Shown here: positions 3,704 to 27,149 of the stretch, piece by piece | Numbering within the stretch: position 1 is the stretch's first letter | How the letters are laid out: every line of letters starts with the position of its first letter | NCBI GenBank assembly: GCA_017447875.1 | Contig: JAFSMP010000031.1 | Location: 1 to 33,121 of the forward strand | From: Paludibacteraceae bacterium | GTDB taxonomy: Bacteria; Bacteroidota; Bacteroidia; Bacteroidales; Paludibacteraceae | Reading direction: 5' to 3' | Length of the DNA: 33,121 bases | The notes under the pieces: model-generated | What the model saw: only the letters and a program-made list of their open reading frames with translations | What the model was told of the DNA's origin: nothing | The model's database searches: none | Position numbers and translations under genes: made by a program

Positions 3704-3771
3704 GACCGGCTTCGCCTATAGGACCGTTTCACTGTAGGACCGCTTCGCTGTAAGACCGGCTTCGCCTGTTA
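3704..3771. repeat. GACC-hairpin array 1 (four units), secG leader
   Basis: Units start at 3704, 3722, 3738 and 3754 and are 18, 16, 16 and 18 bp long. Each is GACC + small hairpin + TRTAR or TGTTA. The hairpins are GGC-TTC-GCC, GT-TTC-AC, GC-TTC-GC and GGC-TTC-GCC. The longer units are exactly those with the 3-bp stem, so length follows stem length. GACGAAAATCG follows and recurs at 3819. Confidence 0.8.
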
Positions 3772-3833
3772 GACGAAAATCGCTTAATGTGGATTTTTTT
3801 CTCGAGCATATAGCTCTCGACGAAAATCGGGTG

Positions 3834-3865
3834 CAAAGGTACTGCTTTTTTCTGACATACGCAAA
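3834..3865 (-). promoter_or_regulatory. Promoter of secG
   Basis: On the minus strand TTTG (3862-3865), 20 bp, TACCTTTG (3834-3841). It lies between the lptE stop and the secG leader, so secG need not depend on lptE transcription. Confidence 0.8.
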
Positions 3866-3880
3866 TTTTTTTGCAAAAAA

Positions 3881-4444
3881 CTACCATTTTGCTACCGTAT
3901 CATTGTATATGTTCTCGGCAATTTCCTTTACGATCGTGGCGCATAACTCATCTTGCACATCGCTGAGCAGTTTGGCGGCATCGAAGGTTTGGTACGCCGA
4001 ATAAGTCTTGTCGAAGGACTCTTCGGGGTTGACATTGTTGGTGAAATGTACCTGCACACGGATGGTCAGTTTGCTCTCGGACGCGTAACTGTCCACGGAG
4101 ATAGCTCCTTGCGTGAGGTCATATCCGATGATGGCCCCTTCTACCTCCAGGTCACCGCCTTTGCGCAGTATCTGCAGACGCGTCTGCCGCGCATAGAGGT
4201 CGCGTATCGTTTCCGTGAGCGAACTGGAGAGGGTAGGATTGACCATCGGCGCGTTATTCGGGAAATCCGCCACGGAAATAGAGTGGGTGGTCTGGTAGTT
4301 GATGTTTGCGCCGTTGAACTTGTAGCTGATACTGCAAGATATAGCGCAAAGCACTATGACCGCTATCGCTGTAAGACCGGCGATAAATCGCCTGTAGGAC
4401 CGCTTCGCTGTTAGACCGCTATCGCTGTTAGATTTATAGACCAT
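3881..4444 (-). CDS. lptE: LptE-like LPS-assembly lipoprotein
   Basis: The 187-residue protein is a lipoprotein of the Bacteroidetes LptE family, which plugs the LptD barrel and helps place LPS in the outer membrane. The signal segment is IAGLTAIAVIVLCAISC, with the lipidated cysteine near residue 37, followed by YKFNGANINY and the SISVADFPNNAP stretch typical of this family. The start ATG (4442-4444) overlaps the last codons of the sigma-54 activator by 11 bases, so the two are translationally coupled. The first ~29 residues (SNSDSGLTAKRSYRR and on) are encoded by a four-unit GACC-hairpin array; no other good start lies between it and the lipobox. The gene therefore seems to have acquired the n-region of its signal peptide from a repeat. 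Confidence 0.85.
   Translation of the reverse strand: MVYKSNSDSGLTAKRSYRRFIAGLTAIAVIVLCAISCSISYKFNGANINYQTTHSISVADFPNNAPMVNPTLSSSLTETIRDLYARQTRLQILRKGGDLEVEGAIIGYDLTQGAISVDSYASESKLTIRVQVHFTNNVNPEESFDKTYSAYQTFDAAKLLSDVQDELCATIVKEIAENIYNDTVAKW
4358..4430. repeat. GACC-hairpin array 2 (four units), inside lptE
   Basis: Units start at 4358, 4375, 4398 and 4414. Hairpins are GC-TATC-GC, GGCGAT-AA-ATCGCC (perfect 6-bp stem in a 23-bp unit), GC-TTC-GC and GC-TATC-GC, each framed by GACC and TGTWR. It encodes about residues 5-29 of LptE on the other strand. Confidence 0.8.
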
Positions 4445-5627
4445 ACTCTTTGATTTTACGATATAGGGTTCTTTCGGACAAACCGACTTTTTCTGCGGCT
4501 ACTTTGCGGTTACCGCCGGAGATCTCGAGTGCGCGTTTGATACGCTCTTTCTCGCCGTCTTCGATTCGGAGGGAGGATTCTTCCACGGGAAGGATATCCT
4601 CGGCCTCGCGGGTGGAGGTTTCGATAGCGGGCGCTTTTTCGAGATCTCGAGATGTCGAGATATCGAGATGTCGAACAGGAGGCTCGTCAAGATGACGATC
4701 GTTACTCAAGAGTGCCCGCAACTCCTCAATCTCCTTGCGGTTCTGCATGACCATATTATAGAGGATGCCGAGTTCGTGGGAATAGTCCTTGCCGGTGTCC
4801 TGCGAGGGATTGCGCAGCACGATCTCCTGGCGGTTCTCCTCATGCGGCAGGTATTTGCGGAGTGTGTCGGCATTGATCTGATGGTCCATCTCGATGACTG
4901 CCATCTGTTCGGCAAGGTTCTTGAGTTGTCGTATGTTACCGCGCCAGTAGGAGTTTTGCAAGAGCCGTGTCGCCTCTTCGTTAAGGGAGAGAGGCGGCAT
5001 CTGGTAGCGGTTGCAGAAGTCGGTAGCGAACTTACGGAAGAGCAGCGGGATGTCCTCTTTGCGCTCGCGCAGGGCGGGCACGCGTATCTCAACCGTGTTC
5101 AGACGATAATAGAGGTCCTCGCGGAAACGTCCGTCATCGATCGCCTGGCGCATGTTGAGGTTGGTAGCTGCTACTACGCGGACGTTGGTCTTACGCACCG
5201 TACTGGAACCCATGCGCAGGTATTCGCCGGTCTCCAGCACACGGAGCAGACGCACTTGCGTCTGAAGAGGCAGTTCGCCTACCTCGTCCAAGAAGAGGGT
5301 TCCGCCGTCAGCGATCTCGAAATAGCCTTTGTGCTCGGCTTTGGCATCGGTGAAGGCTCCTTTCTCATGTCCGAACAGTTCGGAGTCGATCGTTCCTTCG
5401 GGGATAGCACCGCAGTTAACGGCAAAATACGGTCCGTGTTTGCGGGCGGAGAAGGCATGAATGATCTTCGGGAAATGCTCTTTACCGACACCGGACTCAC
5501 CGGTGATGAGCACGCTGAGATCGGTGCGAGCCACCTGGACCGCAATTTCTATATTTCTATTGAGCAGCGGACTCTGACCGATGATACCGAAGCGCTGCTT
5601 GATGGCTAATAAATCCTGCTGTGTCAT
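4434..5627 (-). CDS. Sigma-54 activator (AAA+ with Fis-type HTH)
   Basis: This 397-residue protein activates RpoN-dependent promoters. It has no receiver domain: the AAA+ module starts almost at once. Motifs are Walker A GESGVGKE, the sigma-54-contact loop GAFTDA (the commonest form is GAFTGA), Walker B GGTLFLDEVGELP, the VVAATN sensor and the arginine-containing FREDLYYRLN. A linker of about 90 residues precedes a C-terminal Fis-type HTH (ISGGNRKVAAEKVGLSERTLYRK). The linker contains an 8-bp repeat array encoding about residues 318-329. ATG 5625-5627 is chosen; the longer frame would be read through heptamer repeats and the promoter. It is followed by lptE and secG, which suggests an envelope-linked role. 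Confidence 0.9.
   Translation of the reverse strand: MTQQDLLAIKQRFGIIGQSPLLNRNIEIAVQVARTDLSVLITGESGVGKEHFPKIIHAFSARKHGPYFAVNCGAIPEGTIDSELFGHEKGAFTDAKAEHKGYFEIADGGTLFLDEVGELPLQTQVRLLRVLETGEYLRMGSSTVRKTNVRVVAATNLNMRQAIDDGRFREDLYYRLNTVEIRVPALRERKEDIPLLFRKFATDFCNRYQMPPLSLNEEATRLLQNSYWRGNIRQLKNLAEQMAVIEMDHQINADTLRKYLPHEENRQEIVLRNPSQDTGKDYSHELGILYNMVMQNRKEIEELRALLSNDRHLDEPPVRHLDISTSRDLEKAPAIETSTREAEDILPVEESSLRIEDGEKERIKRALEISGGNRKVAAEKVGLSERTLYRKIKEYGL
4640..4674. repeat. Octamer tandem repeat inside the sigma-54 activator
   Basis: CGAGATCT, CGAGATGT, CGAGATAT, CGAGATGT, then CGA. The unit is CGAGATNT, four times. It lies in the linker between AAA+ and HTH and is translated as RHLDISTSRDLE. Confidence 0.85.
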
Positions 5628-5648
5628 AAAAATGCACAAAATAACATG

Positions 5649-5680
5649 CAAAAGTACAAAAAATAGTTGAAAGTGGAAAG
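5649..5680 (-). promoter_or_regulatory. Putative promoter of the sigma-54 activator operon
   Basis: On the minus strand CTTT (5677-5680), 20 bp, TACTTTTG (5649-5656), 21 bases before the chosen ATG. The -33 element falls within the GTGGAAA heptamer array, so array length could affect promoter strength. Confidence 0.5.
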
Positions 5681-5693
5681 TGGAAAGTGGAAA
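5666..5693. repeat. Heptamer tandem repeat upstream of the sigma-54 activator
   Basis: GTTGAAA followed by three GTGGAAA units, exact 7-bp period. Confidence 0.85.
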
Positions 5694-5747
5694 GACGTGC
5701 ATTTTTTAACAAAAATGCGCACTTTTTGCTGATTTTTCTCGCGCGCA

Positions 5748-5779
5748 CTTGCGTATATCAATTATTTGTTGTATCTTTG
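5748..5779 (+). promoter_or_regulatory. Promoter of the wza-wzc-topB run
   Basis: CTTG (5748-5751), 20 bp, TATCTTTG (5772-5779); the ATG at 5809 follows 29 bases later. Confidence 0.7.
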
Positions 5780-5808
5780 CACGCTTATTTTGAAATTATA
5801 GATTGAAT

Positions 5809-6600
5809 ATGCATAATACGATTCAAAAAATTATGATGGTAAGTTTCTGCGCGATGCTGATCGCCAGCTGTACGACGCAGAAGCAGATGACTTATCTGGC
5901 TAACGCGCAGCCGGATAGGGCAGATTCCATCAATATGTCTTTCCGCGCTCAATCGGAGTTGATTATCCGTAATGGCGATGCCTTGACGATCTTCGTGTCG
6001 GCCTTGGATCAGGAGGCGGTGGTGCCGTACAACTTGCCGATGGTGGTATATGCCAAGCCGGGTGAGCAGACGCTGTCCACCACTCCGGCCTTGCAGTACT
6101 ATATCGTAGACGAGAACGGCGATATTGATTTTCCGGTATTGGGTAAGGTGCATGTAGCGGGACTGAAGCGTACGGAAGTGCAGGAGATGTTGAAGAAACA
6201 GCTGGAGGCACAGATATTGAATCCGCTGGTGATGGTGAATATCGCCGGAGCGAAAGTGTCGGTGATGGGTGAGGTGGCTCGTCCGGGTACGATAGGCATG
6301 ACGAACGGACGTATGACGATCCTGGATGCGCTGGCAGCAGCCGGAGACATGACGCCTTACGGCCGCCGGGACAATGTGCTGGTGACGCGTGAGAAGGACG
6401 GTAAGTTGGAGATCGGTCGTCTGAACCTGCGCAGTACGGACATTTATACCTCGCCGTATTATTTCTTGCAGCAGAATGACGTGGTGTATGTGTCACCGAA
6501 CAAAGTACGTGCGGTGAGCAGTACGAATGCCGGTCTTTGGGTCAGCGTAGTAGGAACATTAGCCAGTACGGCGGCTGTCATAGTAACTATAGTGAAGTGA
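5809..6600 (+). CDS. Wza-like polysaccharide export lipoprotein
   Basis: The 263-residue protein belongs to the polysaccharide biosynthesis/export family (Wza/GfcE type), which forms the outer-membrane exit for capsule or exopolysaccharide. A lipoprotein signal is visible (CAMLIASC, Cys21). The export domain starts around residue 50 (LIIRNGDALTIFVSA) and continues as IVDENGDIDFPVLGKVHVAGL. An SLBB-like domain follows (VSVMGEVARPGTIGM, TILDALAAAGD). A hydrophobic segment at about 238-260 ends the protein, typical of Bacteroidetes members. ATG 5809 is preferred over the TTG at 5803. The next gene, a Wzc-like kinase, starts two bases after its stop, so they form one unit. Confidence 0.9.
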   Translation: MHNTIQKIMMVSFCAMLIASCTTQKQMTYLANAQPDRADSINMSFRAQSELIIRNGDALTIFVSALDQEAVVPYNLPMVVYAKPGEQTLSTTPALQYYIVDENGDIDFPVLGKVHVAGLKRTEVQEMLKKQLEAQILNPLVMVNIAGAKVSVMGEVARPGTIGMTNGRMTILDALAAAGDMTPYGRRDNVLVTREKDGKLEIGRLNLRSTDIYTSPYYFLQQNDVVYVSPNKVRAVSSTNAGLWVSVVGTLASTAAVIVTIVK

Positions 6601-6601
6601 T

Positions 6602-8887
6602 ATGAATCAGAATAATCAAAACGAGATAGATGTGCGCAAGATCGTGCGCGTGGTGCTGGAGCATTGGTGGTGGTTTGTCATCGGTGTCGTCTTCTTTGTG
6701 TTGATGGGTTCGTTGTATTACCTGCGCAAGAATAAGGTGTGGACGACGGACACAACGATTATGTTACGTAAGAGCGATATGGCCGGAGACCAGTTCAACG
6801 CGTTGGCGATGATAGGTCTCGGAAGTAATTCGATGGCAGATGACGAGGTGCAGGTGTTGTCGTCGCGCGGAATGATGTACCAATCGCTGGATGCCCTGAA
6901 TCTATGGGAGTATAACTATGTCCGGGACGGGTTGCGCTGGAAAGGCGAGTTTCGTTCGCCGGCGATGAAGATTGATTATATCGCGTTAACGAAAAAGGCG
7001 AAGGAGCGTCCGTTCTCCGTGACGGTCAAGCCGACTAAGTCGGGTTATAAAGTGAAGTCGAAGATGGGCTTTTTCCGGCGCAAGACGACGCGCGTGAAAG
7101 ACCTGAGTGCACCGATAGAGACGGTAGCCGGTACCATCATGATTCATCCGAATCGTCCGCTGAGTCCGGATACGACCTATCGCGTGATCCATATGGTACG
7201 TGAGTTGGTGGTGGCCGACTATATGCGCATGCTGAATGTGCGGTTGCACAAGAAGGAGTCGAACATCATTCATATGAGCATCACTTCTCCGATGCCGGAG
7301 CGCGACAAAGTATTGCTGTACCAGCTCATCGAGCAGTATAACATGAATGCGATGACGGACAAGAACCTGATTGCATCGAACACTGCGCAGTTTATCGAGG
7401 AGCGTCTGAACCTCATTACCGGTGAGTTATCGGAGGCGGAACAGGCGTTGTCGGATTACAAGGAGCAGAACCATATCGCGGATATGAAGACGCAGGCACA
7501 GCTTTTCCTGCATGCCAGCAGTGCCGAGGAACGGGCGATGGCGGAGTTGGAGACGCAGTTGAGCCTGGTGAATTACGTGGATGAGTTCTTGCGCGATGAT
7601 ACGAAGCGGCATAACCTCATTCCTGCCAATATCGGAATCACGGACGCCTCGTTGGGATCGAGCCTGTCGGAGTATAACGCGCTGCTGCTGCAACGTATGC
7701 GTATCCAGCGTACGGCTACGGAGAGTAACCCGGTTCTTGAGCAACTGGATATGCAGTTGGCCTCTATGCGGCAGAACATCATCGCTACGATCAGTTCGGT
7801 GCGTGAGAGCCTGAAGATACGTCAGACCCAGTTGCAGATGCAGGATGACAAGTATAACCGTCAAATCAAGGATGCGCCGAAGCAGGAGCGCGAGTATGTA
7901 CGCGTAGTGCGTGACCAGAAACTGAAGGAGCAGCTCTATCTCTATCTCTACGAGAAACGCGAGGAGAATGCGCTGATGTTGGCAGCCACATCGACGCCTG
8001 CGAAAGTGCTGAATATGCCGCAACGCGATGTGAAGAGCGGTCGTCCGAAACTGACTAGCCTGCTGGCTGTATGCCTGTTCTTGGGTCTTGCTTTCCCGGC
8101 CGGTTTGCTTTATCTGCTGATCCTTTTCTACGATAAGATCGACGACAAGAAGGAATACGAGCGTCGGATTAACGCACCGGTATTGGGTGCGCTGGTGGAG
8201 AACTCGCGTAATGCGCATATCGCTATTCATGAAGGCGAGTCGACCGTCTCGGCAGAGTTGTTCCGCTTGATACGAACGAACCTCCGATTTGTGATTCCTG
8301 CGGAGACGAAGTCACCGGTGATCTTAGTTACCTCGTGTATCAATGGAGAGGGTAAGTCGTATGTGTCTACGAACACCGCCTTGTCGCTGGCGATATTGGG
8401 TAAGAAAGTGGTGCTGGTGGGTTTGGATATCCGCAAGCCGATGCTGTCTATCTATTTCAACCTCAACACCAAAGGTCACCTGACCGATTATCTGGCAGAG
8501 CCGGAGACGGAGGTGGACGATATCATCATCCCGAGCGGTGAGCATAAGAACCTCGATCTCATTCCTTGCGGCACGATTCCGCCGAACCCGTCGGAGTTGT
8601 TGCAGAACGGTCGTCTGGATAAGCTGTTCGCCGAGTTGCGCAAGCGCTACGACTATATCATCGTAGATACGGCGCCGGTGGAGATGGTGAGCGATACCTT
8701 CCTGCTGGATCGCCTGGCCGATATGACGATCTTCGTTTGCCGCTACAAATATACTCCGTCGGAGATGATCGACCGTATCAATGAGATGATCGAGCAGAAG
8801 CGGATGCATAACGTAGCCGGTGTACTCAACGGTGTCAAAGGCCTTAAAGCCGGATACGGCTACGGGTACGGTGCTCAAAAAGACTAA
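6602..8887 (+). CDS. Wzc-like polysaccharide co-polymerase / tyrosine autokinase
   Basis: The 761-residue inner-membrane protein controls polymerisation and export of surface polysaccharide together with Wza. It has an N-terminal helix (about 20-41, WWWFVIGVVFFVLMGSLYYL), a long periplasmic Wzz/coiled-coil region, and a second helix at about 490-510. The cytosolic BY-kinase domain has Walker A NGEGKSYVSTN (about residue 580), the Walker A' segment VLVGLDIRKP and Walker B YIIVDTAPV. The C-terminus has a short tyrosine cluster (GYGYGYG), the usual autophosphorylation site. No glycosyltransferase, flippase or polymerase gene lies nearby, so this is a pair detached from its biosynthesis cluster. 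topB starts five bases after its stop. Confidence 0.9.
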   Translation: MNQNNQNEIDVRKIVRVVLEHWWWFVIGVVFFVLMGSLYYLRKNKVWTTDTTIMLRKSDMAGDQFNALAMIGLGSNSMADDEVQVLSSRGMMYQSLDALNLWEYNYVRDGLRWKGEFRSPAMKIDYIALTKKAKERPFSVTVKPTKSGYKVKSKMGFFRRKTTRVKDLSAPIETVAGTIMIHPNRPLSPDTTYRVIHMVRELVVADYMRMLNVRLHKKESNIIHMSITSPMPERDKVLLYQLIEQYNMNAMTDKNLIASNTAQFIEERLNLITGELSEAEQALSDYKEQNHIADMKTQAQLFLHASSAEERAMAELETQLSLVNYVDEFLRDDTKRHNLIPANIGITDASLGSSLSEYNALLLQRMRIQRTATESNPVLEQLDMQLASMRQNIIATISSVRESLKIRQTQLQMQDDKYNRQIKDAPKQEREYVRVVRDQKLKEQLYLYLYEKREENALMLAATSTPAKVLNMPQRDVKSGRPKLTSLLAVCLFLGLAFPAGLLYLLILFYDKIDDKKEYERRINAPVLGALVENSRNAHIAIHEGESTVSAELFRLIRTNLRFVIPAETKSPVILVTSCINGEGKSYVSTNTALSLAILGKKVVLVGLDIRKPMLSIYFNLNTKGHLTDYLAEPETEVDDIIIPSGEHKNLDLIPCGTIPPNPSELLQNGRLDKLFAELRKRYDYIIVDTAPVEMVSDTFLLDRLADMTIFVCRYKYTPSEMIDRINEMIEQKRMHNVAGVLNGVKGLKAGYGYGYGAQKD

Positions 8888-8892
8888 CTCTC

Positions 8893-10845
8893 ATGATCGT
8901 TTGTGTAGCAGAGAAACCGTCGGTGGGCGAGTATATCGCCCGGGTGCTGGGTGCTAACCAGCGCAAGAACGGTTATTTCGAGGGGAACGGGTATCAGGTG
9001 ACCTGGACCTTCGGACATCTCTGCGCACTGCTGGATCCGCAGGAATATACGGAGCAGTGGAAAGGGTGGAACCTGAGTACACTGCCGATGATCCCGCCGC
9101 GTTTCTCCATCAAGGTACATGGAGACGAAGGCGTGCATAAGCAGTTCAATGTGATCAAAGCGCTGATCGAGCAAGCCGATGAGGTGATTAACTGCGGTGA
9201 TGCCGGTCAGGAAGGAGAGTTGATCCAGCGCTGGGTCTATCAGCAGGCGGGATGTAAGTGTCCCGTGAAGCGCTTATGGGTCAGTTCCTTGACCGAAGAA
9301 GCCATCCGCGAGGGTTTTCAGACATTAAAAGATCAATCGGAGTACCAGCACTTGTATGAGGCGGGTATGATGCGAGCTATCGGCGATTGGTTGCTGGGCA
9401 TGAACGCCACGCGCGCATATACAATAAGGTACGCGCGAGGGACAGGACGTGACCGGCAGGTGCTTTCCGTGGGACGTGTGCAGACACCGACCTTGGCCTT
9501 GGTGGTCAAACGTCAGGCGGAGATAGAGCATTTTGTGCCGAAGACCTATTGGGAACTGAAGACGAACTATCGTGATACGTTGTTCAGTGCGCAGATTCCG
9601 GTGGTGACGGTTGCCCCCGATGAAACGGGGGAAACCCCAGACGGAAGGGGGACCATCACCAGCGAAGAGCAGGGACAGGCACTCGTAGACAGCATCAAAG
9701 ACCTGCCGCTGACCATCACTTCGGTAGAGAAGAAGAAAGGGCTGGAGTATGCGCCCAAACTGTATGACCTGACCTCGCTGCAAGTCGATTGCAATAAGAA
9801 ATATTCGTTCTCTGCCGAGCAGACGCTGCAACTCATCCAATCGCTGTACGAGAAACGCGTGACGACCTATCCGCGTGTAGATACGACGTACCTGAGCGAT
9901 GACATCTACCCGAAAGTACCGGCTACGCTGGCGGGTATCAAGGATTATTATCCGCAAGTGGCACCGCTGATCGGGGCGAAGTTACCGAAGTCGAAGAAGG
10001 TGTTTGACAACAAGAAAGTGACCGACCACCATGCCATCATCCCTACCGGACAACGACCGGAAGGACTGACGGCGGACGAGAAGAAGGTGTTTGACCTTGT
10101 GGCGCTGCATTTCATTGCGGCTTTCTATCCCGAATGCGAGGTGAGCAACACCACCGTGCTGGCTAAAGCCGGTGAGATCGACTTCAAGGTGACGGGTAGG
10201 GAAGTACTTAAACCCGGATGGCGGGCGGTGTTCGGGAATGAGCGTTCGCAGGGCGAACTCAATGATGAGAATGATGCGAATGATGAATCCTCCAAGTCCC
10301 TGCCGGCTTTTGTGAAAGGCGAGAGCGGTTCGCATGAACCCGTGCTCAAAGAGAAGACGACCACGCCGCCGAAGTACTACACCGAGGCCACGCTGCTGCG
10401 GGCGATGGAGACGGCGGGTAAAACGGTGGAGAATGATGAGTTGCGGGAGGCAATGAAGGAGAACGGTATCGGTCGTCCTTCCACCCGTGCGGCCATCATC
10501 GAGAAACTGTACCAACGCAAGTATATACAGAAGCAGGGCAAGAGCCTCCGGGCTACCGAGACCGGTATCAACCTCATTCATATGATCATCTCTCCGCTGC
10601 TCAAGTCGGCGGAACTGACCGGTCTATGGGAGAAGAAACTGCGTGAGATCGAACGCGGTGAATATCAGGCCATGGATTTCCTGAATGAACTCAAGCAGAT
10701 GACGTCCGACGTGGTACGGGATGTGAAGACTAACAAAGCAGGTATGTTGTGTCCCGTTTGCCGGCAAGGTCTCATCATCCGTGGTAACACCCGTTACGGT
10801 TGTTCCCGATGGAGAGAAGGATGCAATTATGCTGAAGCATTCTAA
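8893..10845 (+). CDS. topB: DNA topoisomerase III
   Basis: This 650-residue type IA topoisomerase relaxes and decatenates DNA by cutting one strand. The N-terminal Toprim domain is clear (VAEKPSVGEYIARVLGA; the acidic motif DAGQEGELIQRW). The catalytic tyrosine is Y326 in TTYPRVDT. The ENGIGRPSTRAAIIEKL segment lies in the central domain. The C-terminus carries a four-cysteine zinc-ribbon-like segment (CPVC...C...C). Two places look inserted: residues about 241-253 (PDETGETPDGRG) come from a GC-rich double hairpin, and NDENDANDE comes from three near-identical 9-bp units at about 10260. The gene follows wzc by five bases, an unusual partner; co-transcription is inferred. Confidence 0.95.
   Translation: MIVCVAEKPSVGEYIARVLGANQRKNGYFEGNGYQVTWTFGHLCALLDPQEYTEQWKGWNLSTLPMIPPRFSIKVHGDEGVHKQFNVIKALIEQADEVINCGDAGQEGELIQRWVYQQAGCKCPVKRLWVSSLTEEAIREGFQTLKDQSEYQHLYEAGMMRAIGDWLLGMNATRAYTIRYARGTGRDRQVLSVGRVQTPTLALVVKRQAEIEHFVPKTYWELKTNYRDTLFSAQIPVVTVAPDETGETPDGRGTITSEEQGQALVDSIKDLPLTITSVEKKKGLEYAPKLYDLTSLQVDCNKKYSFSAEQTLQLIQSLYEKRVTTYPRVDTTYLSDDIYPKVPATLAGIKDYYPQVAPLIGAKLPKSKKVFDNKKVTDHHAIIPTGQRPEGLTADEKKVFDLVALHFIAAFYPECEVSNTTVLAKAGEIDFKVTGREVLKPGWRAVFGNERSQGELNDENDANDESSKSLPAFVKGESGSHEPVLKEKTTTPPKYYTEATLLRAMETAGKTVENDELREAMKENGIGRPSTRAAIIEKLYQRKYIQKQGKSLRATETGINLIHMIISPLLKSAELTGLWEKKLREIERGEYQAMDFLNELKQMTSDVVRDVKTNKAGMLCPVCRQGLIIRGNTRYGCSRWREGCNYAEAF
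9614..9651. repeat. GC-rich double hairpin inside topB
   Basis: CCCCCG ATGAAA CGGGGG (perfect 6-bp stem), then AAA, then CCCC AGACGGAA GGGG. It encodes a Pro/Gly/Asp-rich loop in a region where topoisomerase III proteins vary. It looks like another read-through palindromic insertion; only one copy is in the window. Confidence 0.5.
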
Positions 10846-10872
10846 TTTAAGATTTAAGATTTTAGATTTGCA
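10845..10872. repeat. Heptamer tandem repeat after topB
   Basis: ATTTAAG, ATTTAAG, ATTTTAG, ATTTGCA: 7-bp period, starting at the topB stop codon. Confidence 0.7.
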
Positions 10873-10927
10873 AAGTCAAAATGACAAAAATAGGGCTATG
10901 TGCACTTTTTTCGTCAAAAAATACACA

Positions 10928-10980
10928 TTTGTGTGTGTTTTTTTTTGTACCTTTGCCGCCGATTTGTAGCGTATATACGC
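10928..10980 (+). promoter_or_regulatory. Promoter region of the susC operon, with 12-bp palindrome
   Basis: TACCTTTG at 10948-10955 is a good -7 element. TTTG at 10928-10931 stands 16 bp upstream, which is shorter than the 20 bp of the other promoters here, so the promoter may need an activator. GCGTATATACGC (10969-10980) is a perfect palindrome close to the expected transcript start and could be an operator. The susC ATG is at 11037. Confidence 0.5.
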
Positions 10981-11036
10981 GCGTTTAATGAGGAATAAAC
11001 AATTTAACTTTTTATCAATACAAACAAAATCTCTTT

Positions 11037-17901: not shown

Positions 17902-17961
17902 CAGCGGATTTGTGAAATATTTTTAGTTAACCCTAATATTAACAATTAAAAACTCAACATT

Positions 17962-18693
17962 ATGAAGAAATTTTTCCTCTTCGCAGCTGCTGTTGCAACT
18001 GCAATGACAATCAACGCACAGAAAGTAGTTGTGCTGAACGAGGTAGCTAACTACATCGATTTCCAGGCGCTTAGCGTTTCGGATCCGGCTATGACTTCTT
18101 CTGTTGTTACCAGTACTGCTCCGTACCAGCTGGCTAACGGTTCGAAACTCGTAGGTTTCCAGAAATCGGACGGTACTGAGGCTGAGAACAAATGGAATGT
18201 AAAAGAGGCATACAACACGACTATGCCGACTCCGACATGGGATGGCGTTGACTCGCTGAAGGCAGGTACGATGTTCCGTGCAGCTTCGGGTACAACGATT
18301 GAACTCGGTGCATTCCAGACCAAAGCAGAGGGCAAACTCGTTGTTTACTATCAGCCGAACGGCGATAGCGAGCGCGGTGTAGAGGTTTATGTTTATGGCG
18401 AATCGGTAACCGGTAAAGACTTGACCGGTAGCGGTGTAAAGATCGACGGTATCCGTCCGGCTTATGCTGGTGAGATCACTCTCGCAGCAGGTAGCTATGA
18501 CGCAGGTGACGTTGTTATCAAAACCGTCGTTAACACCAGCAACATCTTCGGTGTACGTATCGAAGCACTTGGTGCAGAGCAAGGTATCAACAACACCAAC
18601 GCTTCTGTTAAGGCTGAGAAGTTCTTCCGTAACGGTCAGCTCATCATCCGCAAGAACGGTGTAGAGTACAACGCTATCGGCGCACAACTCTAA
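17962..18693 (+). CDS. Secreted protein with short T9SS-like C-terminal tail
   Basis: A standard signal peptide (MKKFFLFAAAVATAMTINAQ) without a lipobox starts this 243-residue protein. The body is beta-rich with no catalytic motif I can name and resembles a carbohydrate-binding jelly roll in composition only. The C-terminus, AEKFFRNGQLIIRKNG then YNAIGAQL, matches the pattern Bacteroidales use at the end of many type IX-secreted proteins (NGQ, I-I, G, YN-x-x-G). It lies between a pectate lyase and a polygalacturonase, so a pectin-binding or presenting role is plausible. Alanine and threonine codons favour GCT, GCA and ACT more than in neighbouring genes, which may point to high expression. 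Function is not assigned. Confidence 0.75.
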   Translation: MKKFFLFAAAVATAMTINAQKVVVLNEVANYIDFQALSVSDPAMTSSVVTSTAPYQLANGSKLVGFQKSDGTEAENKWNVKEAYNTTMPTPTWDGVDSLKAGTMFRAASGTTIELGAFQTKAEGKLVVYYQPNGDSERGVEVYVYGESVTGKDLTGSGVKIDGIRPAYAGEITLAAGSYDAGDVVIKTVVNTSNIFGVRIEALGAEQGINNTNASVKAEKFFRNGQLIIRKNGVEYNAIGAQL

Positions 18694-18709
18694 TCCTCCT
18701 CATGGACAT

Positions 18710-18742
18710 AAAAAATGCTCGCAGCACTGCGAGCATTTTTTT
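18710..18742. terminator. Bidirectional intrinsic terminator
   Basis: A6 + TGCTCGCAG, loop CA, CTGCGAGCA + T7: a long perfect hairpin with A-run and T-run. It ends the small secreted protein gene on the plus strand and the GH28 gene on the minus strand. Confidence 0.92.
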
Positions 18743-18756
18743 ATTGCCTGTCTGTC

Positions 18757-20250: not shown

Positions 20251-20262
20251 GATAAAATAATT

Positions 20263-20297
20263 TTTAATTCCTAATTCGTAATTTTTAATTCACAATT
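20263..20297. repeat. Heptamer tandem repeat before the polygalacturonase gene
   Basis: Five 7-bp units: TTTAATT, CCTAATT, CGTAATT, TTTAATT, CACAATT. It reaches into the stop codon of the FAD oxidoreductase gene. Confidence 0.75.
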
Positions 20298-21870
20298 ATT
20301 GTGCCAACTCGACAATCTTGAGAGCCGCGTTGATGCCGTCCAGGGCGGAACTGGTGATACCGCCTGCGTATCCGGCTCCTTCGCCGCAAGGGTAGAGCAG
20401 GGGCGTACTCACCGATTGTAGGGTTTCCGGATCACGGGGGATACGCACCGCACTGCTGCTGCGACTCTCGACGCCTACGATCACTGCTTCATTGGTCAGG
20501 AAGCCCGGGTACTTACGGTCGAAATCCCGAAAACCCTGTTGCAGCCGTGCCCCTATATGCGCCGGTAACCACTGGTCCAAACGGCTTGAGACGATGCCCG
20601 GTAAGTAACTGCATGCCGGCAGGTCCTTGCTTGCTTTCCCCTCTACAAAATCTTTCAGCCGCTGTGCCGGAGCTTGGGCTTGCGGGCCTCCGTGCTCAAA
20701 TGCCATGCGTTCCAATTCCTCTTGGTACGCTAATCCGCGAAGCGGATCCTCTCCGGGGATGTCCTCCGGGTTGATCTGTACCACCATTCCGCTGTTGGCA
20801 TAAGGACTATTGCGATGACTCGCACTCATTCCATTGACGACGCAACTGCCCGCGTCGCTTCCTGCCGGCACGATATGTCCGCCGGGACACATACAGAACG
20901 AATAGACTCCTCGTCCATCGACTTGCGTCACCAAACTATACGACGCATTGCCGAGGTATTTGATGATGTTTTCGTGATCTCGTGATCTCGTGATCTCGTG
21001 ATCTCGACCCTTGAAATACATCAATTTATTGATGAGCGCCTGCGGATGCTCCGCCCGCACACCCATCGCAAAACCTTTCGTCTCTAACTTCACCCCTTCT
21101 TTGGCTAACATCCGATAGGTATCGTGCGCGGAATGGCCAATGGCCAATATCGTTGGCTGCGCCAACGATGGACCGGCTTCGCCTGACAGACCGTTACACT
21201 GACAGACCGTTTCACTGTTAGACCGTTTCACTGTTAGACTTTTAAGGCTATCAATCTTTGTCTCAAAGTGGATCTCTCCGCCATGCGTGAGGATACACTC
21301 GCGCATGTTCTTGATGATGGAAGGCAACTTATCGCTACCGATATGGGCATGGGCTTCGTACAATACCGTGTCCGGTGCACCGAAATAATGGAAAATCTCC
21401 ATCACGCGCTGCATGTTACCGCGTTTCTTGGATCGCGAGAAGAGTTTGCCGTCCGAGAACGTACCGGCTCCTCCTTCACCGAAGCAGTAGTTCGACTCCG
21501 GATTGAGCCCCTCGTTCCTATTGAGCAATGCGATATCGCGTTTTCGTTCACTCACTTCCTTGCCCCGCTCGTAGATAATCGGCTTGATTCCATGTTCTAT
21601 CAGAGTCAACGCTGCAAAAAGCCCTGCCGGACCTGCACCGATAATCACCGTCTGTCGCTTTGCCTCATGTACATCCTGATACACCGGCGGAGCATAGAGC
21701 GGGATAGGGGCATCCTTGGCGATCGGCTTACCTTGGTCATCTATTAAAACGGTAAGATGCACGCGCAACTCTCGCTGCCGTGCATCTACTGAACGTTTCA
21801 CCACCCGCCATTGTTGCTCCATCGCATGAGCCTCCCGCGGGGATACGATATATTGTCGGTTATTTTCCAA
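20296..21870 (-). CDS. FAD-dependent oxidoreductase
   Basis: This 524-residue flavoprotein has a Rossmann FAD site ([17 protein letters not shown], about residues 75-91) after an N-terminal domain ([15 protein letters not shown]). The [15 protein letters not shown] segment and the C-terminal [19 protein letters not shown] are typical of the conserved, uncharacterised bacterial family annotated as NAD(P)/FAD-dependent oxidoreductase. Substrate unknown. The start is the TTG at 21868-21870: an in-frame stop lies three codons upstream and the next ATG would remove 16 conserved-looking residues. It overlaps the recA 3' end by 11 bases. Two repeat arrays are read in frame: GACC-hairpins (residues about 212-240) and CGTGATCT octamers (about 288-299). 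Confidence 0.88.
20973..21007. repeat. Octamer tandem repeat inside the FAD oxidoreductase gene
   Basis: CGTGATCT four times without mismatch, then CGA. It encodes [12 protein letters not shown]. The unit differs by one base from CGAGATCT in the sigma-54 activator array at 4640. Confidence 0.9.
21149..21236. repeat. GACC-hairpin array 3, inside the FAD oxidoreductase gene
   Basis: A perfect 9-bp hairpin ATCGTTGGC TGC GCCAACGAT (21149-21169) leads into four units at 21171, 21189, 21205 and 21221. Their hairpins are GGC-TTC-GCC, GT-TAC-AC, GT-TTC-AC and GT-TTC-AC. All units carry GACC and TGACA or TGTTA ends. Confidence 0.82.
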
Positions 21871-22900
21871 TCTTATTTAAGATAGCTTCGAGACCAAGTT
21901 CTTTCACTTTCTCTCCGATCTTAACCTCCAACTCTTCGCACAACTCCGGATTATCTGCCAGAACCTCTTTCACTTTGTCGCGTCCCTGACCGAGTTTGGT
22001 GTCGCCGTAACTGAAGAACGAACCGCTTTTCTTAATCACCTCGGCAGCCACTGCGAAATCGAGAATCTCACCGATACGCGAGATACCTTCGTTGAACATC
22101 AGATCGAACTCGGCTTTCTTGAACGGAGGAGCGACTTTGTTCTTCACTACCTTCACGCGCACTTGGTTACCCTTGATCTGCTCGCCGTCTTTGATCTGAC
22201 CCGTACGACGGATATCCAGACGCACCGATGCGTAGAACTTCAACGCATTACCACCGGTGGTCGTCTCCGGATTACCGAACATCACACCGATCTTCTCGCG
22301 CAACTGGTTGATGAAGATAACGGTCGTGCCGGTCTTGTTCACCGAAGCCGTCATCTTACGCAAAGCCTGCGACATCAGACGTGCCTGCAGTCCCACTTTG
22401 TTATCACCCATATCTCCGGTGATCTCTGCTTTCGGCGTCAGCGCCGCTACGGAGTCGATAACAATCAGGTCCACCGCTGCCGAACGAATCAACTCATCGG
22501 CAATCTCCAGAGCCTGCTCTCCGCTGTCCGGCTGTGCAATCAGCAGTTCGCCGATGTTCACACCCAGTTTCTCGGCATAGAAACGGTCGAAAGCATGCTC
22601 GGCATCGATGATAGCTGCGATACCGCCTGCCTTCTGCACCTCCGCCATCGCGTGGATAGCCAGCGTCGTCTTACCCGAGGACTCCGGACCGTAGATCTCG
22701 ATGATACGTCCCTTCGGGTAACCGCCTACGCCCAAGGCGTAATTGAGTCCCAGACTGCCGGTCGGGATAACCGGTACATTCTCGATATTCTCGTCACCGA
22801 GTTTCATGATGGCTCCCTTACCAAACTCTTTGTCGATCTTTGCCATCGCTGCCTGCAGCGCTTTCAGCTTGTCTGCCGATGGTGTCACTTTTTCTGCCAT
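21860..22900 (-). CDS. recA: Recombinase RecA
   Basis: The 346-residue protein is the strand-exchange recombinase for homologous recombination and SOS signalling. Walker A is GPESSGKTT (71-79), Walker B lies in [15 protein letters not shown], and the L2/Q-loop region is [30 protein letters not shown]. Length and start fit the family. A promoter lies at 22927-22958. The FAD gene begins inside its last codons, so the two are translationally coupled. I see no LexA box, and Bacteroidales often lack the classical SOS operator. Confidence 0.99.
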
Positions 22901-22926
22901 ACTATTGTTGTTTTATAATTACGCTG

Positions 22927-22958
22927 CAAAGGTACAAAAAAAAAAGCACATACACAAG
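22927..22958 (-). promoter_or_regulatory. Promoter of recA
   Basis: On the minus strand CTTG (22955-22958), 20 bp, TACCTTTG (22927-22934), 26 bases before the ATG. Confidence 0.8.
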
Positions 22959-23018
22959 AATTTAATAAATTTTTTATTAAATTAATCGTATGAACTTAGT
23001 GAATTAAGAAGTATGTGC

Positions 23019-23654
23019 TCACTTTTTTTCAAAAAATCTGCAATATTGTGTCAATCCGCATTGTTCGCACTTGGGCTTGCGGGCTTGGCAGATATACCGG
23101 CCGTGCAGTAGTAGCCAGTGATGGGCCTTGGGAATGATGCCTTTCGGGATATATTGTACCAGCGCTTTCTCCGTTTGCAGCGGGTTCTTGCTGTTCGTCG
23201 TGAGACCTAACCGTTCGCTGACTCGGAAGATATGGGTGTCGACCGCCATGGTGGGTTGGTTCCAGATAACCGCGCAGACCACGTTCGCCGTCTTGCGACC
23301 GACGCCTTGAAGGGTCTGTAAGTCTTCGATATTATCGGGTACTTGCCCGTTGTAGGCCTCGACAAGCCGCTGCGCCATCTGCACCAAGTGTTCCGCTTTA
23401 CTGCGCGGATAACTGACCGACTTCACATATTCGAACACCTCGTCGCTCGTTGCCTGAGCCAAAACTTGCGGTGTGGGGTAGGCTGCAAACAAAGCAGGCG
23501 TCACCATATTGACCCGCTTATCCGTGCATTGTGCGGACAGCATCACGGCAATGAGGCATTGGAAAGGGTTGGCAAACACCAGCTCACTCTCTGCCACCGG
23601 CATGTTCGCTTCGAACCAAGCCAATATGTTCTCAAATCGCTGTTTGGTTCTCAT
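23019..23654 (-). CDS. nth: Endonuclease III (DNA glycosylase/AP lyase)
   Basis: The 211-residue enzyme removes oxidised pyrimidines and nicks at AP sites in base excision repair. The helix-hairpin-helix is LQGVGRKTANVV with catalytic K121; catalytic D139 is in AVDTHIFRV. Cysteines 189, 196, 199 and 205 (C-x6-C-x2-C-x5-C) bind the [4Fe-4S] cluster. Its start overlaps the DUF4924 gene by 23 bases, so it is the last gene of the rplY-pth run. Confidence 0.97.
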   Translation of the reverse strand: MRTKQRFENILAWFEANMPVAESELVFANPFQCLIAVMLSAQCTDKRVNMVTPALFAAYPTPQVLAQATSDEVFEYVKSVSYPRSKAEHLVQMAQRLVEAYNGQVPDNIEDLQTLQGVGRKTANVVCAVIWNQPTMAVDTHIFRVSERLGLTTNSKNPLQTEKALVQYIPKGIIPKAHHWLLLHGRYICQARKPKCEQCGLTQYCRFFEKK

Positions 23655-24102
23655 GATAGGTGCGACTTAAAAATTGTAATATAGGTGTCACCTGTTGTTG
23701 CACCGAAGCGGTCTCCGGCGTGATCTCGCGTTGCTGCAACCGCAACAGCATGATCTGGTAAAGCAGCAGCAGGCATGCCTCGATGTCCGACATCGTCGGA
23801 CGGTCGGTCTTGGCCTTCAGCAGATTCAGACTCGGCTGCAGACGGATGATCGCTGCGCGGTATAGTGCATCCTCGTTAAGAATCTCCGCATGTAAGTCCT
23901 CCAACTCTGCCAAGGCATTCTGCGCCAGTTGCAGATGACCGGACTCCACAATCCCTTCGCGATGCATCATCTCATTCAACTCATGCAACTCCGGCGTGGC
24001 GTCTGCATGTTGCGGAAACGCCCGCAAGTAGTCCTCCATCTGCCATAAGTATAGAATATATTCCGCTATGTTGTCTTTCTTGGATTTCATCATTTGCATC
24101 AT
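23632..24102 (-). CDS. DUF4924 family protein
   Basis: The 156-residue, mostly helical protein begins KSKKDNIAEYILYLWQMED, which I recognise as the DUF4924 opening, a Bacteroidetes-specific family without known function. It has no signal peptide or membrane helix. The start overlaps the S4 protein's stop by four bases (ATGA), and its end overlaps nth by 23 bases, so it is embedded in a translationally coupled chain. Confidence 0.75.
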   Translation of the reverse strand: MMQMMKSKKDNIAEYILYLWQMEDYLRAFPQHADATPELHELNEMMHREGIVESGHLQLAQNALAELEDLHAEILNEDALYRAAIIRLQPSLNLLKAKTDRPTMSDIEACLLLLYQIMLLRLQQREITPETASVQQQVTPILQFLSRTYHENQTAI

Positions 24103-24518
24103 TCAATCATTTCATCATTCCAATCGTCGCTCTCGTCTAAATAGTTGTCGGACATGAAAACTTCTATGTCTCTGCGATCCTTCTTCGTCGGTCTTCCCAT
24201 ACCTCTGTCGCGACCGCCGTTGCCTGCCATCCGTGCCAACTCGAGTATCTCCAGTTGTTGCGGCGACGTGCAGTCTTGCAGGTACTCCGGCACCAGTTTG
24301 GCGCCTAACCGGTTCTCCGTCAACTGCAGTATTTTATAGGTGTACGTGATCGGACCCTTGCGCACGTTGAACGTGTCGCCGATATGGAACGTGCGGCTGG
24401 GTTTGAGTTGCACGCCATTCATACTGATACGCCCGTTCTTGCAGGCATCGGCAGCAATAGAGCGCGTCTTATAGATACGCATGGCCCATAGAAACTTATC
24501 TACGCGAACTTCACTCAT
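24099..24518 (-). CDS. S4-domain RNA-binding protein (Hsp15 family)
   Basis: The 139-residue protein opens with an S4 domain (VRVDKFLWAMRIYKTRSIAADACKNGRISMNG). Hsp15-type proteins bind 50S subunits carrying stalled peptidyl-tRNA, which fits a transcript also encoding Pth and L25. A basic and acidic tail (GRPTKKDRRDIEVF, then DESDDWNDE) follows. It overlaps the transferase gene by eight bases and the DUF4924 gene by four. Confidence 0.88.
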   Translation of the reverse strand: MSEVRVDKFLWAMRIYKTRSIAADACKNGRISMNGVQLKPSRTFHIGDTFNVRKGPITYTYKILQLTENRLGAKLVPEYLQDCTSPQQLEILELARMAGNGGRDRGMGRPTKKDRRDIEVFMSDNYLDESDDWNDEMIE

Positions 24519-26457
24519 GGGTCAATCGGTTGTTGATCATTCGGTATATATACTGCTGAACGTACGCTTTGAGGTATTGCACCATCTCTTCCGGTGCCTG
24601 ATCTGCCGGAAGCGGTTGTTGCAGCAACGGGTCGCACCGGTAATTATACAACGCCGTCACTTGTTTTCCGTCAAACTGCATCAACAGACTGTCACTCATG
24701 ATTTGATAGACAGGGTTGTTGTAACAAACGGCATAGTTATGCGTTTTGGAGGTGGTCAGTGCATCTTCACCGAAGGCAAAATAAGGCGCTTCATAACCCA
24801 CCGCTCCCAATACGGAAGGCATAATATCCGTTTGGCTGACGATGTCATGCCGTTGTTCGGCAGGCAACAACGCCGGGCAATAGAAAACCACCGGCACGCG
24901 ATATTGTCCCAAAGCATTCGTGTAGGTAGGGGTACATAGTTGGTTGGTATGATCGGCTGTGATGACGAAGAGGGTATGGTCGAACCAAGGCTGCGTACGG
25001 GCGTAAGCGAAGAACTGCCGCATGGCATTATCGCTATAACCGATACACTGATGGAGCGGTTGCGAACCCTGCGGGAAGACGCCTTCGTATTGCTCGGGTA
25101 CACGGAAAGGATGATGACTCGACGCGGTGAAGACTGCCGTCATGAAGGGCTCTGGTATCGTGCTCATCGTGCGACCGTAGAACTGCAAGAAAGGTTCATC
25201 CCAGATAGCCCAAGTGCCGTCAAAATCCCGTTTGGCATCGGGATACTCGTCCATGCCGTAGTACTTCTGGAAACCGGCACTGCGAGCGTAGGCCTGAAAA
25301 CCCATACTGCCGTTCGGCGCACCGTGGAAGAAAGCGGTGGTATACCCCTCTCTGCGCAAACAGTCAGCGATGGACGAGACGGCATTGGTTGAGTAGGGGG
25401 TTACCACATAGGGGTTGATGAGCATCGGGATAGACGAGAGCACCGACGGCATGGCGTCAATGGACTTGCGTCCGGACGCAAAACTGTACTCCCAGGTGAC
25501 GCTTTGCGCCAAGAGGGAATCCAAGAAAGGCGTGAAACCTTTACCCTCATTGTAAAAACCGATATGCTCCGAAGCAAAAGACTCCAGGATGAACACCACT
25601 ACATTAAACCCTTCAGCTTTCACCTTTAACTCTTTCTCTCCTTCATTCTTATGCCACGGCGTCATGATCGTCTCCAACGCTTCCAACTCAAAATACTTCG
25701 GGTCGGTATAGGTACTGCCTTCCGACGAACGCATGATACTGAACGGCGTATTGAGCACCAGGATGGTCTCCTGTGGCCTGTTGGTGTATTGAAGCGCATT
25801 GCTCAGCGTGATAGGACGGGTATATTTACCGAAACCGCCCCGGATTCCGATGACAATGAAATAGACCGTCACTACAAAGAGGAGCGTCTCGAAGATATAA
25901 TATCCTACAGCGTTAGCGGTCTTACAGTGAAACGGTTTTACAGTGTCAACGGTTTTATAGCGAAGCGGTCTATATAGCCACACAAAAGCCGTCATAAGCG
26001 CCAAAGCGAAGAACGTGACGTACCAGTATTGGACGACGCCTTGCATAAAGATACCGAGTAAGTTACCGTCGTTCTGGAACTCGTCGAAGAAAGTGATGGT
26101 CGTACGGCGGTCGGTGAAACGTACATACACCATATCTATGCTGTTCGCCGCCAAACCGATGAGGTTCGGGATCAAAAAGAAATACTTAGCCACCGATTGA
26201 TAAACCTCATTCTGCCGCCATGACATCGGTAACGGAAGAAGCATCAACAGCAGATAAACCGAACTGAGATACAGTACAGCGGTGAGGTCAAAACGAAAAC
26301 CTCCCCATAGCATCTCCATCAGATGCGAGAACGAAACATCGGGAAAGAGGTCCGGACTCACCCAATAGAAGAATAAACGCGACAGCGTGTAGGCTGCCAA
26401 AATCAACAGGATATTATATGCCGCACACACCCATGGGTGATTCCAAAAACGCTTCAT
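24511..26457 (-). CDS. Sulfatase-fold membrane transferase (LTA synthase-like)
   Basis: The 648-residue protein has about five N-terminal transmembrane helices and a large extracytoplasmic sulfatase/alkaline-phosphatase-fold domain from about residue 275. Metal-site and nucleophile regions are VVVFILESFASEHIGF, SGRKSIDAMPSVLSS and ITADHTN. The family transfers phosphoglycerol, phosphoethanolamine or related groups to surface glycans; in a Gram-negative Bacteroidales the target may be LPS, capsule or membrane glycans. Residues about 163-184 (LRYKTVDTVKPFHCKTANAV) are encoded by a GACC-hairpin array and lie in the loop between two membrane helices, a place that tolerates insertions. It starts one base after the pth stop. 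Confidence 0.88.
   Translation of the reverse strand: MKRFWNHPWVCAAYNILLILAAYTLSRLFFYWVSPDLFPDVSFSHLMEMLWGGFRFDLTAVLYLSSVYLLLMLLPLPMSWRQNEVYQSVAKYFFLIPNLIGLAANSIDMVYVRFTDRRTTITFFDEFQNDGNLLGIFMQGVVQYWYVTFFALALMTAFVWLYRPLRYKTVDTVKPFHCKTANAVGYYIFETLLFVVTVYFIVIGIRGGFGKYTRPITLSNALQYTNRPQETILVLNTPFSIMRSSEGSTYTDPKYFELEALETIMTPWHKNEGEKELKVKAEGFNVVVFILESFASEHIGFYNEGKGFTPFLDSLLAQSVTWEYSFASGRKSIDAMPSVLSSIPMLINPYVVTPYSTNAVSSIADCLRREGYTTAFFHGAPNGSMGFQAYARSAGFQKYYGMDEYPDAKRDFDGTWAIWDEPFLQFYGRTMSTIPEPFMTAVFTASSHHPFRVPEQYEGVFPQGSQPLHQCIGYSDNAMRQFFAYARTQPWFDHTLFVITADHTNQLCTPTYTNALGQYRVPVVFYCPALLPAEQRHDIVSQTDIMPSVLGAVGYEAPYFAFGEDALTTSKTHNYAVCYNNPVYQIMSDSLLMQFDGKQVTALYNYRCDPLLQQPLPADQAPEEMVQYLKAYVQQYIYRMINNRLTHE
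25905..25970. repeat. GACC-hairpin array 4 (four units), inside the transferase gene
   Basis: Read on the gene strand the units begin GACCGCTTCGC, AACCGTTGACAC, AACCGTTTCAC and GACCGCTAACGC, each ending TRTAA or TGTAG; lengths are 16-17 bp. Hairpin arms are GC/GC, GT/AC, GT/AC and GC/GC. Two units have AACC in place of GACC. Confidence 0.8.
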
Positions 26458-26458
26458 G

Positions 26459-27022
26459 TCATTTATTGCTAAACTGGTTCATAGTTCGGTCGATACCTTG
26501 CAGACAGAAACTCGGAATGATCTCTGTCGTCACCTTCAACCGCTCTTCAATCTGTTTCTTCTCCTCATCGGTCCACTCGCCCAGCACGAAGTTGATCTGC
26601 GTCCCGCGCGTGTACTCGTTCCCTATGCCAAAGCGCACCCGCGCGTACGCGTCCGTGCCTAACACCGATTGGATGTTACCCAGACCGTTGTGCCCGCCGT
26701 TGGAGCCTTGCTTGCGGATACGTATTGTTCCGAAAGGCAAGTTTAGGTCATCGACAAGTACCAACATGTTCTCCACCGGGATCTTCTCTTCCTTCAACCA
26801 GTACCGAACAGCGTTACCGCTCAGGTTCATGTAGGTCGAAGGTTTGAGCAACACCAACTCAGCGTTCTTCACCCGGCAGCGACCGATGAACCCGTACCGC
26901 TTGTCTTCCCACTTCACCTCCTTCGATGCCGCAAAAGCATCAATCATCATAAAACCGATGTTATGCCGCGTACCTGCGTACTCGTCACCGATATTGCCTA
27001 AACCGACTATTAGATATTTCAT
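26459..27022 (-). CDS. pth: Peptidyl-tRNA hydrolase
   Basis: The 187-residue enzyme recycles peptidyl-tRNA dropped from ribosomes. [11 protein letters not shown] and [10 protein letters not shown] carry the catalytic His20; the [12 protein letters not shown] segment and [12 protein letters not shown] are family signatures. The ATG at 27020-27022 is chosen: an upstream ATG at 27055 would add 11 residues encoded partly by a GACC unit. It lies 130 bases after rplY, a classic neighbour. Confidence 0.97.
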
Positions 27023-27034
27023 ACTTGGAATAAA

Positions 27035-27149
27035 GACCGTTTCACTAAAAGACAAAAGACAATGGACTGATTTACTATCGGTCGGGGCATTTCTGTCCTT
27101 AATCCTTTAGCGCAGCGGTCCATCGTCTTTCAGCGGCTATGCCGCGGTC
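27035..27149. repeat. GACC-hairpin units in both orientations between rplY and pth
   Basis: One forward unit GACCGTTTCACTAAAA (27035-27050). Two reversed units: 27105-27120 (hairpin GC-TGC-GC) and 27127-27149 (hairpin GCGGC-ATA-GCCGC on the reverse strand, a 5-bp stem in a 23-bp unit). The middle part is degenerate. This interval holds no gene. Confidence 0.7.

Follow-up and report, generated by a model that had tools for sequence, protein, structure and literature searches.

What kind of element is a short hairpin that recurs head to tail in fours, whose two stem arms change together, and that lies for the most part within protein-coding genes? The question is raised by a 33,121-nt contig of a Paludibacteraceae bacterium (GenBank JAFSMP010000031.1; "the window" hereafter means this whole stretch), in which an earlier note had described tandem units of GACC, a hairpin, and a TGTTA-like end. 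These GACC arrays are a real, genome-wide, and genus-restricted family. We favor reading them as a REP/RPE-like palindromic repeat without a known mobilizer, whose stems would be written and kept complementary by hairpin-templated synthesis, and we put the probability of this reading at roughly 55%.

Extent of the family and anatomy of the arrays

Each unit has the form GACC-stem-loop-stem-TGTWR, and four-unit arrays span 64 to 86 bp. A search pattern covering one unit and the beginning of the following one gave 69 matches in the 2.25-Mb genome of the organism itself, or ∼34 loci when merged by eye, versus 2 for the reversed pattern. Across 37 genomes of the genus, the pattern matched 689 times versus 66 for the control (0 to 92 matches per genome), and 24 genomes from other genera in the order gave 16 matches versus 139. 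The earlier note had proposed such a genome search and allowed that, if no further arrays turned up or if arms did not co-vary in other copies, the family could be a matter of chance or a single local duplication. These counts and the co-variation described below refute that explanation, for which we found no point in favor and which we consider extremely improbable.

A more stringent pattern, which requires two consecutive units, hit mostly metagenome-assembled genomes (MAGs) labeled Paludibacteraceae, Bacteroidales, or Bacteroidia, as judged from the named genomes among the matches listed; many of the array-bearing MAGs are of ruminant origin (among the 80 of 116 loci with names, again from the matches listed). 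This pattern also matched unrelated repeats, e.g., in Streptococcus and Clostridia, which were removed; 11 loci were dropped by eye as such, many of them GGACC-rich tandem coding repeats (L042, L054, L064, L082, L091, L109, L128, L130, L136, L144, and L145). Combining the scan loci (those among the matches listed rather than a census), the loci of the organism's own genome, and the window, a parser that requires two outer pairs and skips arrays less than 70 bp from a locus end yielded the set of 148 arrays used here. A second hairpin family built on ATTGAGC, a candidate seen in genome G006, was rejected, as it occurs at one locus only among the 61 genomes.

The description of units as usually four in tandem holds well: exactly four are present in 87 of the 148 arrays and in 22 of 30 in the organism's own genome, where at least three of the exceptions (L001, L024, and L029) have four when read by eye. 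The commonest unit is 16 bp long with a 7-nt core (240 of 479 units), and cores of 7 to 8 nt, with a median stem of 2 bp, account for 320 of the 479. Positions within an array are not equivalent. The third hairpin is usually the shortest in the 87 four-unit arrays, with a 7-nt core at position 3 in 68 of them and at positions 1, 2, and 4 in 22, 39, and 26, respectively.

The two arms of a unit co-vary. When units were taken without any pairing requirement and 3′ arms were shuffled 500 times among arms of the same length, the two outer pairs formed in 450 of 478 real units (94%), versus 327.7 on average and 344 at most in the shuffles. The result held for distinct cores (128 of 155, shuffle maximum 92; we counted 156 distinct cores in all) and for four outer pairs (72 of 95 units, shuffle maximum 39). 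The co-variation seen in the window extends to other copies, and the claim that the arms of a unit always match was only slightly too strong. Among the 240 seven-nucleotide cores, the outer arms are GC/GC in 171, GT/AC in 37, AC/GT in 19, and other combinations in 13.

A palindrome at one edge

Many arrays have a palindrome directly at their 5′ edge, and there only. We scored palindromes whose stem ends no more than 2 nt from the first GACC and applied a threshold of 6 or more; one of the 148 arrays, which shared its flank key with another, was excluded (n = 147). Such a palindrome is present at 42 of 147 left flanks, versus 5 of 673 places picked at random in these loci, and at 0 of 147 right flanks at that score. 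Loops of 3 to 4 nt occur in 21 of the 27 left palindromes that score 7 or more. In three cases compared by eye (the window gene P0002 for a FAD-dependent protein, site 2 of the region C6, and a PG_1098-like gene), the outer arm consists of host codons and the inner arm is new. For P0002, the outer arm is host coding sequence for PTI that can be aligned with array-free orthologues, and the inner arm is found only in orthologues with GACC units (arms assigned by eye). This one-sided polarity matches what fold-back of the GACC strand would leave.

Placement within genes

Most arrays lie in genes, almost always antisense to them. By mechanical calls, 109 of the 148 arrays are within open reading frames (ORFs), and 100 of these 109 are antisense to the gene and open in its frame. 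The antisense arrays comprise 77 inside an ORF, 20 at the N terminus, and 3 at the C terminus; the sense arrays comprise 6 inside and 3 C-terminal; and the remaining 39 lie between ORFs in mixed directions. Within proteins, the arrays fill linkers and loops. The host genes are ordinary genes: all 6 internal sense hosts carry Pfam domains at 1e-5; of 10 internal antisense hosts drawn at random, 8 have a Pfam match, including the FAD gene and a DUF4861 gene (the other two, at L251 and L255, gave none); and Pfam matches were also obtained for the LptE and sulfatase proteins of the window, XerC, and the PG_1098-like protein. In the phase where it would give a stop, the TGTTA connector was seen in 0 of 39 cases within ORFs, versus 88 of 267 in the other phases and 29 of 136 between ORFs, a result with some circularity, since a lack of stops is what defines an ORF. 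Connectors occur in all three reading phases, and there is therefore no single conserved peptide.

A subset of arrays forms N termini that resemble signal peptides, such as MKKSNSDSGLTARRSNRLFIAGLTAIAVMLALPT (L102) and MVYKSNSDSGLTAKRSYRRFIAGLTAIAVIVLCAISC, the minus-strand reading of the array at 4358-4430 in the window, which is the N terminus of LptE. The first part of the hydrophobic core comes from a 14-nt palindromic unit, in most cases GGCnnnAAnnnGCC. A 14-nt unit is present in 16 of 20 N-terminal arrays versus 3 of 128 others (Fisher p = 4e-15, a value that is too small, as several of the 16 are orthologues of one another, e.g., L004/L124, L039/L073, and L069/L100). Of the three others, L009 is also signal-peptide-like by eye, which makes 17 arrays in total, and two carry another 14-nt type; among the 20 N-terminal cases, L061, L084, and L127 are not signal-peptide-like. 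In these 17 arrays, the 14-nt unit looks like it encodes a signal-peptide core, as judged from hydropathy and reading by eye. The antisense placement within ORFs, the signal-peptide-like subset, the unequal array positions, and the palindrome at one edge had all escaped the earlier note.

One host merits separate mention. In L153:3116-4351, a PcrB domain (residues 21 to 245) is fused to a cytidine deaminase domain (270 to 412) with an array at the junction, and the flanking DNA places the same array site in L066, L099, L114, L120, and L149. The L153 array may have made or bridged this fusion.

Turnover at orthologous sites

Comparison with sister genomes, also proposed earlier, confirmed that arrays are present at some orthologous loci and absent from others. 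Among the 30 best P0002 loci (alignment A1 covers 22 of 58 matches), the loop holds GACC units in L183, L185, L191, L194, and L202 and a single reversed unit in L199. Elsewhere it holds other tandem repeats in many loci and plain sequence in some; the repeats are often heptamer-like, with species-specific sequence (L184, L187, L188, L192, L193, L195 to L198, L201, L206, and L209; all read by eye). At site 1 of the C6 region, where both anchors were found in 19 of 20 relatives, the organism's own genome and 6 of the 20 have GACC arrays, and the remaining relatives have octamer, nonamer, or other repeats, or none. At site 2, genome G069 has a like palindrome followed by heptamers in place of GACC units. 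The PG_1098-like gene has GACC units in 6 of 30 loci, and across 28 aligned loci the sulfatase loop has a canonical array in the organism's own genome only, with a degenerate remnant in G069. In XerC, arrays occur in 3 of the 30 best loci (54 matches); the stretch between anchors measures 84 to 96 nt with an array and 33 to 102 nt in the 27 array-free loci (57 nt in 13 of them). At these sites, native linker sequence gives way to other content and does not simply grow longer. The window also has octamer repeats within coding sequence, TCGAGATG and TCGTGATC, at 4639-4674 and 20972-21006; the type at 4639-4674 also occupies C6 site 1 in the sister species G034 and G015.

Matching flanks define 22 groups of arrays, from which we drew 60 orthologous unit comparisons between four-unit arrays (not all independent, as groups of three give dependent pairs). 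Units were identical in 19, differed in length with both stems kept in 15, and differed in the loop only in 8. The change was two-sided and compensated in 8, one-sided and still paired in 3, and both two-sided and one-sided, still paired, in 1. Genome G014 uses a distinct linker, TATTGGAC, between hairpins whose stems are free (29 hits versus 0 to 2 in the other 60 genomes; e.g., C14:147806-147857), and a linker can therefore change across a whole genome.

Ordinary recombination between arrays through the shared TGTWRGACC linkers could instead swap whole units and make arms appear to co-vary without any hairpin copying. The 15 swaps with a length change and the genome-wide linker of G014 fit such exchange. 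However, recombination creates neither new stem types (156 distinct cores) nor an edge palindrome, and we find this explanation unlikely. Alternatively, selection may act on the hairpins themselves, for example, if mRNA structure paced translation where domains meet and at signal peptides. Stems do remain paired through large changes, and arrays do sit at domain borders in XerC, the PcrB-deaminase fusion, and CinA. Against this stand the arrays between ORFs with their mixed directions, the frequency of array-free orthologues (27 of the 30 best XerC loci), and the predominance of 7- to 8-nt cores with 2-bp stems; we regard this explanation as quite unlikely. Both processes may add to copying.

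Is there a mobilizer?

REP elements, which have a short tag adjoining a hairpin (as described in PMC3733652), are moved by RAYT, a HUH Y1 transposase, and GACC could be the tag that such an enzyme reads beside each hairpin. The window holds a RAYT-like gene at 496-1611 (371 aa; NF047646, 3.7e-10, 39.8 bits versus a cut-off of 80), the family is present in 39 of 61 genomes at 1e-10, and by rank it correlates weakly and positively with the number of arrays (rho = 0.32, p = 0.056, 37 genomes). In L390 (G036), about 300 bp separate a GACC array at 998-1082 from a RAYT-like gene. However, L390 is the only one of 49 RAYT loci with a GACC unit pair nearby (some genes were counted twice), and the repeat that accompanies the window gene is not the GACC unit (443-481, 905-943, and 1619-1657). 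Genomes G004, G026, and G035 have 28, 70, and 18 array hits and no RAYT match at 1e-10, at estimated completeness of 96, 83, and 73%, and head-to-tail fours within genes are unlike REP dimers. A Pfam family search, a search with the window's own RAYT-like protein, and inspection of flanks gave no support for RAYT as the mover, and we consider this explanation improbable. No mobilizing enzyme was found.

The repeat of the window RAYT-like gene is a 39-nt REP-like sequence of its own, before, inside, and after the gene, with a partial copy downstream at 3266-3282; several RAYT-like genes in the genus likewise carry direct repeats of their own on either side. We also rejected as a cause the loss of SbcCD, a nuclease that acts on hairpins: SbcD scored above cut-off in 6 of the 37 genus genomes and 9 of the 24 others, and array counts do not differ by SbcD (p = 0.42).

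Proposed hairpin-templated synthesis

How might the arrays arise? Template switching has been reported to make and repair perfect stems (as described in PMC8794818). By hairpin-templated synthesis, a nascent strand would fold back over a loop of 3 to 4 nt and copy itself, so that both arms change in one event; at the edge of an insertion, the same fold-back would copy or perfect host DNA and leave the edge palindrome. Arrays would spread to sites that tolerate extra sequence, i.e., protein linkers and loops, signal peptides, and intergenic DNA, and the conserved TGTWRGACC linkers would allow whole units to be exchanged between arrays. Those open in the frame of the gene would survive, and some would be taken over as signal peptides. 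The earlier note had left the choice between selection and copying through a hairpin; whole-unit turnover and the edge palindrome lean toward copying, and neither is proof.

Several observations weigh against this reading. The edge palindrome is absent or weak, with a score under 6, in 105 of 147 arrays; that of XerC overlaps conserved host residues and is ambiguous; and in some relatives without this array, part of an imperfect palindrome is already there at sites 1 and 4 of C6 (by eye), so the palindrome at these sites was perfected, or the site chosen for it, and not made anew. A pair is broken in 6 of the 60 orthologous unit comparisons, and compensated changes and length swaps also follow from inter-array recombination or structural selection. 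Neither template switching itself nor an ancestor-descendant pair was observed. Hairpin-templated synthesis does not account for the array size of four or the short third unit. The strand bias is also larger than stop codons by themselves would give: among the frames of 23 intergenic arrays with four units, 28 of 69 antisense ones are open and 11 of 69 sense ones, a ratio near 2.5 to 1, compared with 100 to 9 in genes. In addition, ORFs were called mechanically, and orthologous loci do not contribute independent arrays.

A more far-reaching claim would be that a hairpin-copying process at work in the genus writes new arrays of near-fixed size into genes, supplying linkers and complete signal peptides by DNA fold-back and not by point mutation or duplication of coding sequence. 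We hold this as a tentative possibility, and a rather doubtful one. If hairpin copying is confirmed, it would provide a single-step route to linkers and signal peptides in bacteria, and the hundreds of units (the 689 pattern hits in 37 genomes) would allow selection and copying to be counted against each other as origins of compensated stem changes. In any case, the arrays are a natural, many-times-repeated example of a DNA palindrome and protein coding satisfied together.

Features of the window

The earlier note had listed five loci in the window. Four of them bear four-unit arrays as claimed, and the fifth, 27035-27149, holds no array: by eye, it has one degenerate plus-strand unit and two minus-strand units, head to head (Table 1). 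The array at 3704-3771 begins 35 bp upstream of the secG start codon. The array at 25905-25970 has GACC on the minus strand, on one strand with its gene, and forms a loop of a sulfatase/LtaS-like membrane protein; its units 2 and 3 start with AACC, and the strict parser filter missed it. An Rfam search of the window gave no match at the arrays, its sole passing match being a tRNA at 27872-27942.

Table 1. GACC arrays, adjoining palindromes, and neighboring genes in the window
Feature	Position	Strand	Remarks
Four-unit GACC array (GGCTTCGCC, GTTTCAC, GCTTCGC, GGCTTCGCC)	3704..3771	+	Intergenic; script-parsed
secG	3355-3669	-	
Edge palindrome H0, abuts array 3704-3771 on 5′ side	3673..3703	+	13 pairs, one mismatch, loop 3
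Four-unit array (GCTATCGC, GGCGATAAATCGCC, GCTTCGC, GCTATCGC)	4358..4430	+	Script-parsed
Imperfect palindrome ATAGCGC-AAA-GCACTAT, adjoins array 4358-4430	4341..4357	+	By eye
LptE-family gene, N terminus formed by array 4358-4430	3881..4444	-	PF04390, 4e-16
Four-unit array (GGCTTCGCC, GTTACAC, GTTTCAC, GTTTCAC)	21171..21236	+	Antisense, in frame in FAD-dependent protein gene; script-parsed
Edge palindrome H0, ATCGTTGGC-TGC-GCCAACGAT, 5′ of array 21171-21236	21149..21169	+	
FAD-dependent protein gene P0002, host of array 21171-21236	20296..21870	-	PF21688, 5.5e-68
Four-unit array (GCTTCGC, GTTGACAC, GTTTCAC, GCTAACGC)	25905..25970	-	Units by eye
Sulfatase-family membrane protein gene P0003, host of array 25905-25970	24511..26457	-	PF00884
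Lone degenerate unit GACC-GTTTCAC-TAAAA	27035..27050	+	Between rplY and pth; by eye
Degenerate unit GACC-GCTGCGC-TAAAG	27105..27120	-	By eye
Unit GACC-GCGGCATAGCCGC-TGAAA	27128..27149	-	By eye

Relation to known repeat systems

Very small repeats scattered in genomes are familiar from the small dispersed repeats of cyanobacteria. In a literature search that covered titles and abstract openings, with most subscription literature outside its scope, we recognized no paper on the GACC array family. Several described systems share single features with it. The TAACTGA heptamer repeats are also very small, scattered through genomes, and present in a few Bacteroidetes, but are described as a fixed direct heptamer that is chiefly intergenic (PMC4679880). 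PARCEL repeats are tandem coding repeats with dyad symmetry; as described (PMC2996958), they consist of a 25-residue motif in variable number, whereas the units here are 16 to 23 bp, mostly four to an array, and the commonest, at 16 bp, is not a multiple of 3, so that the frame shifts from unit to unit (compared by description). Template-switch hairpins have both arms made or repaired in one event, but PMC8794818 treats them as a mutation process in RNA genes and not as a dispersed repeat family. The coding palindromes of Nematomorpha mitochondria are inverted repeats retained in translated genes, but they are long (up to 284 bp) and are not described there as a dispersed family of hairpin units (PMC6649704).

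Two further systems are the REP and Rickettsia palindromic elements (RPEs). Like GACC arrays, REPs have a tetranucleotide tag beside a stem-loop and sub-families with complementary stem changes (as described in PMC3733652). Their tags are GTAG or CGTC at one end of a 20- to 40-bp palindrome, and they are mainly extragenic and associated with RAYT; here the tag is GACC, the commonest unit is shorter, most arrays are in ORFs as head-to-tail fours, and the RAYT evidence given above shows no link. The RPE analogy drawn in the earlier note is a good one: RPEs are palindromic, dispersed, and in frame within unrelated genes (as described in a MITE review, PMC10969869), and so are GACC arrays. Judged by description, RPEs differ in being ∼150 bp long, each with an ORF for a conserved peptide (same source), and in having a CGTC end, whereas GACC arrays comprise about four short hairpins with free stems in 64 to 86 bp and include a signal-peptide-like subset. 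Altogether, GACC arrays are related in kind to both RPE and REP elements, sharing some of the defining features of each and departing from others.

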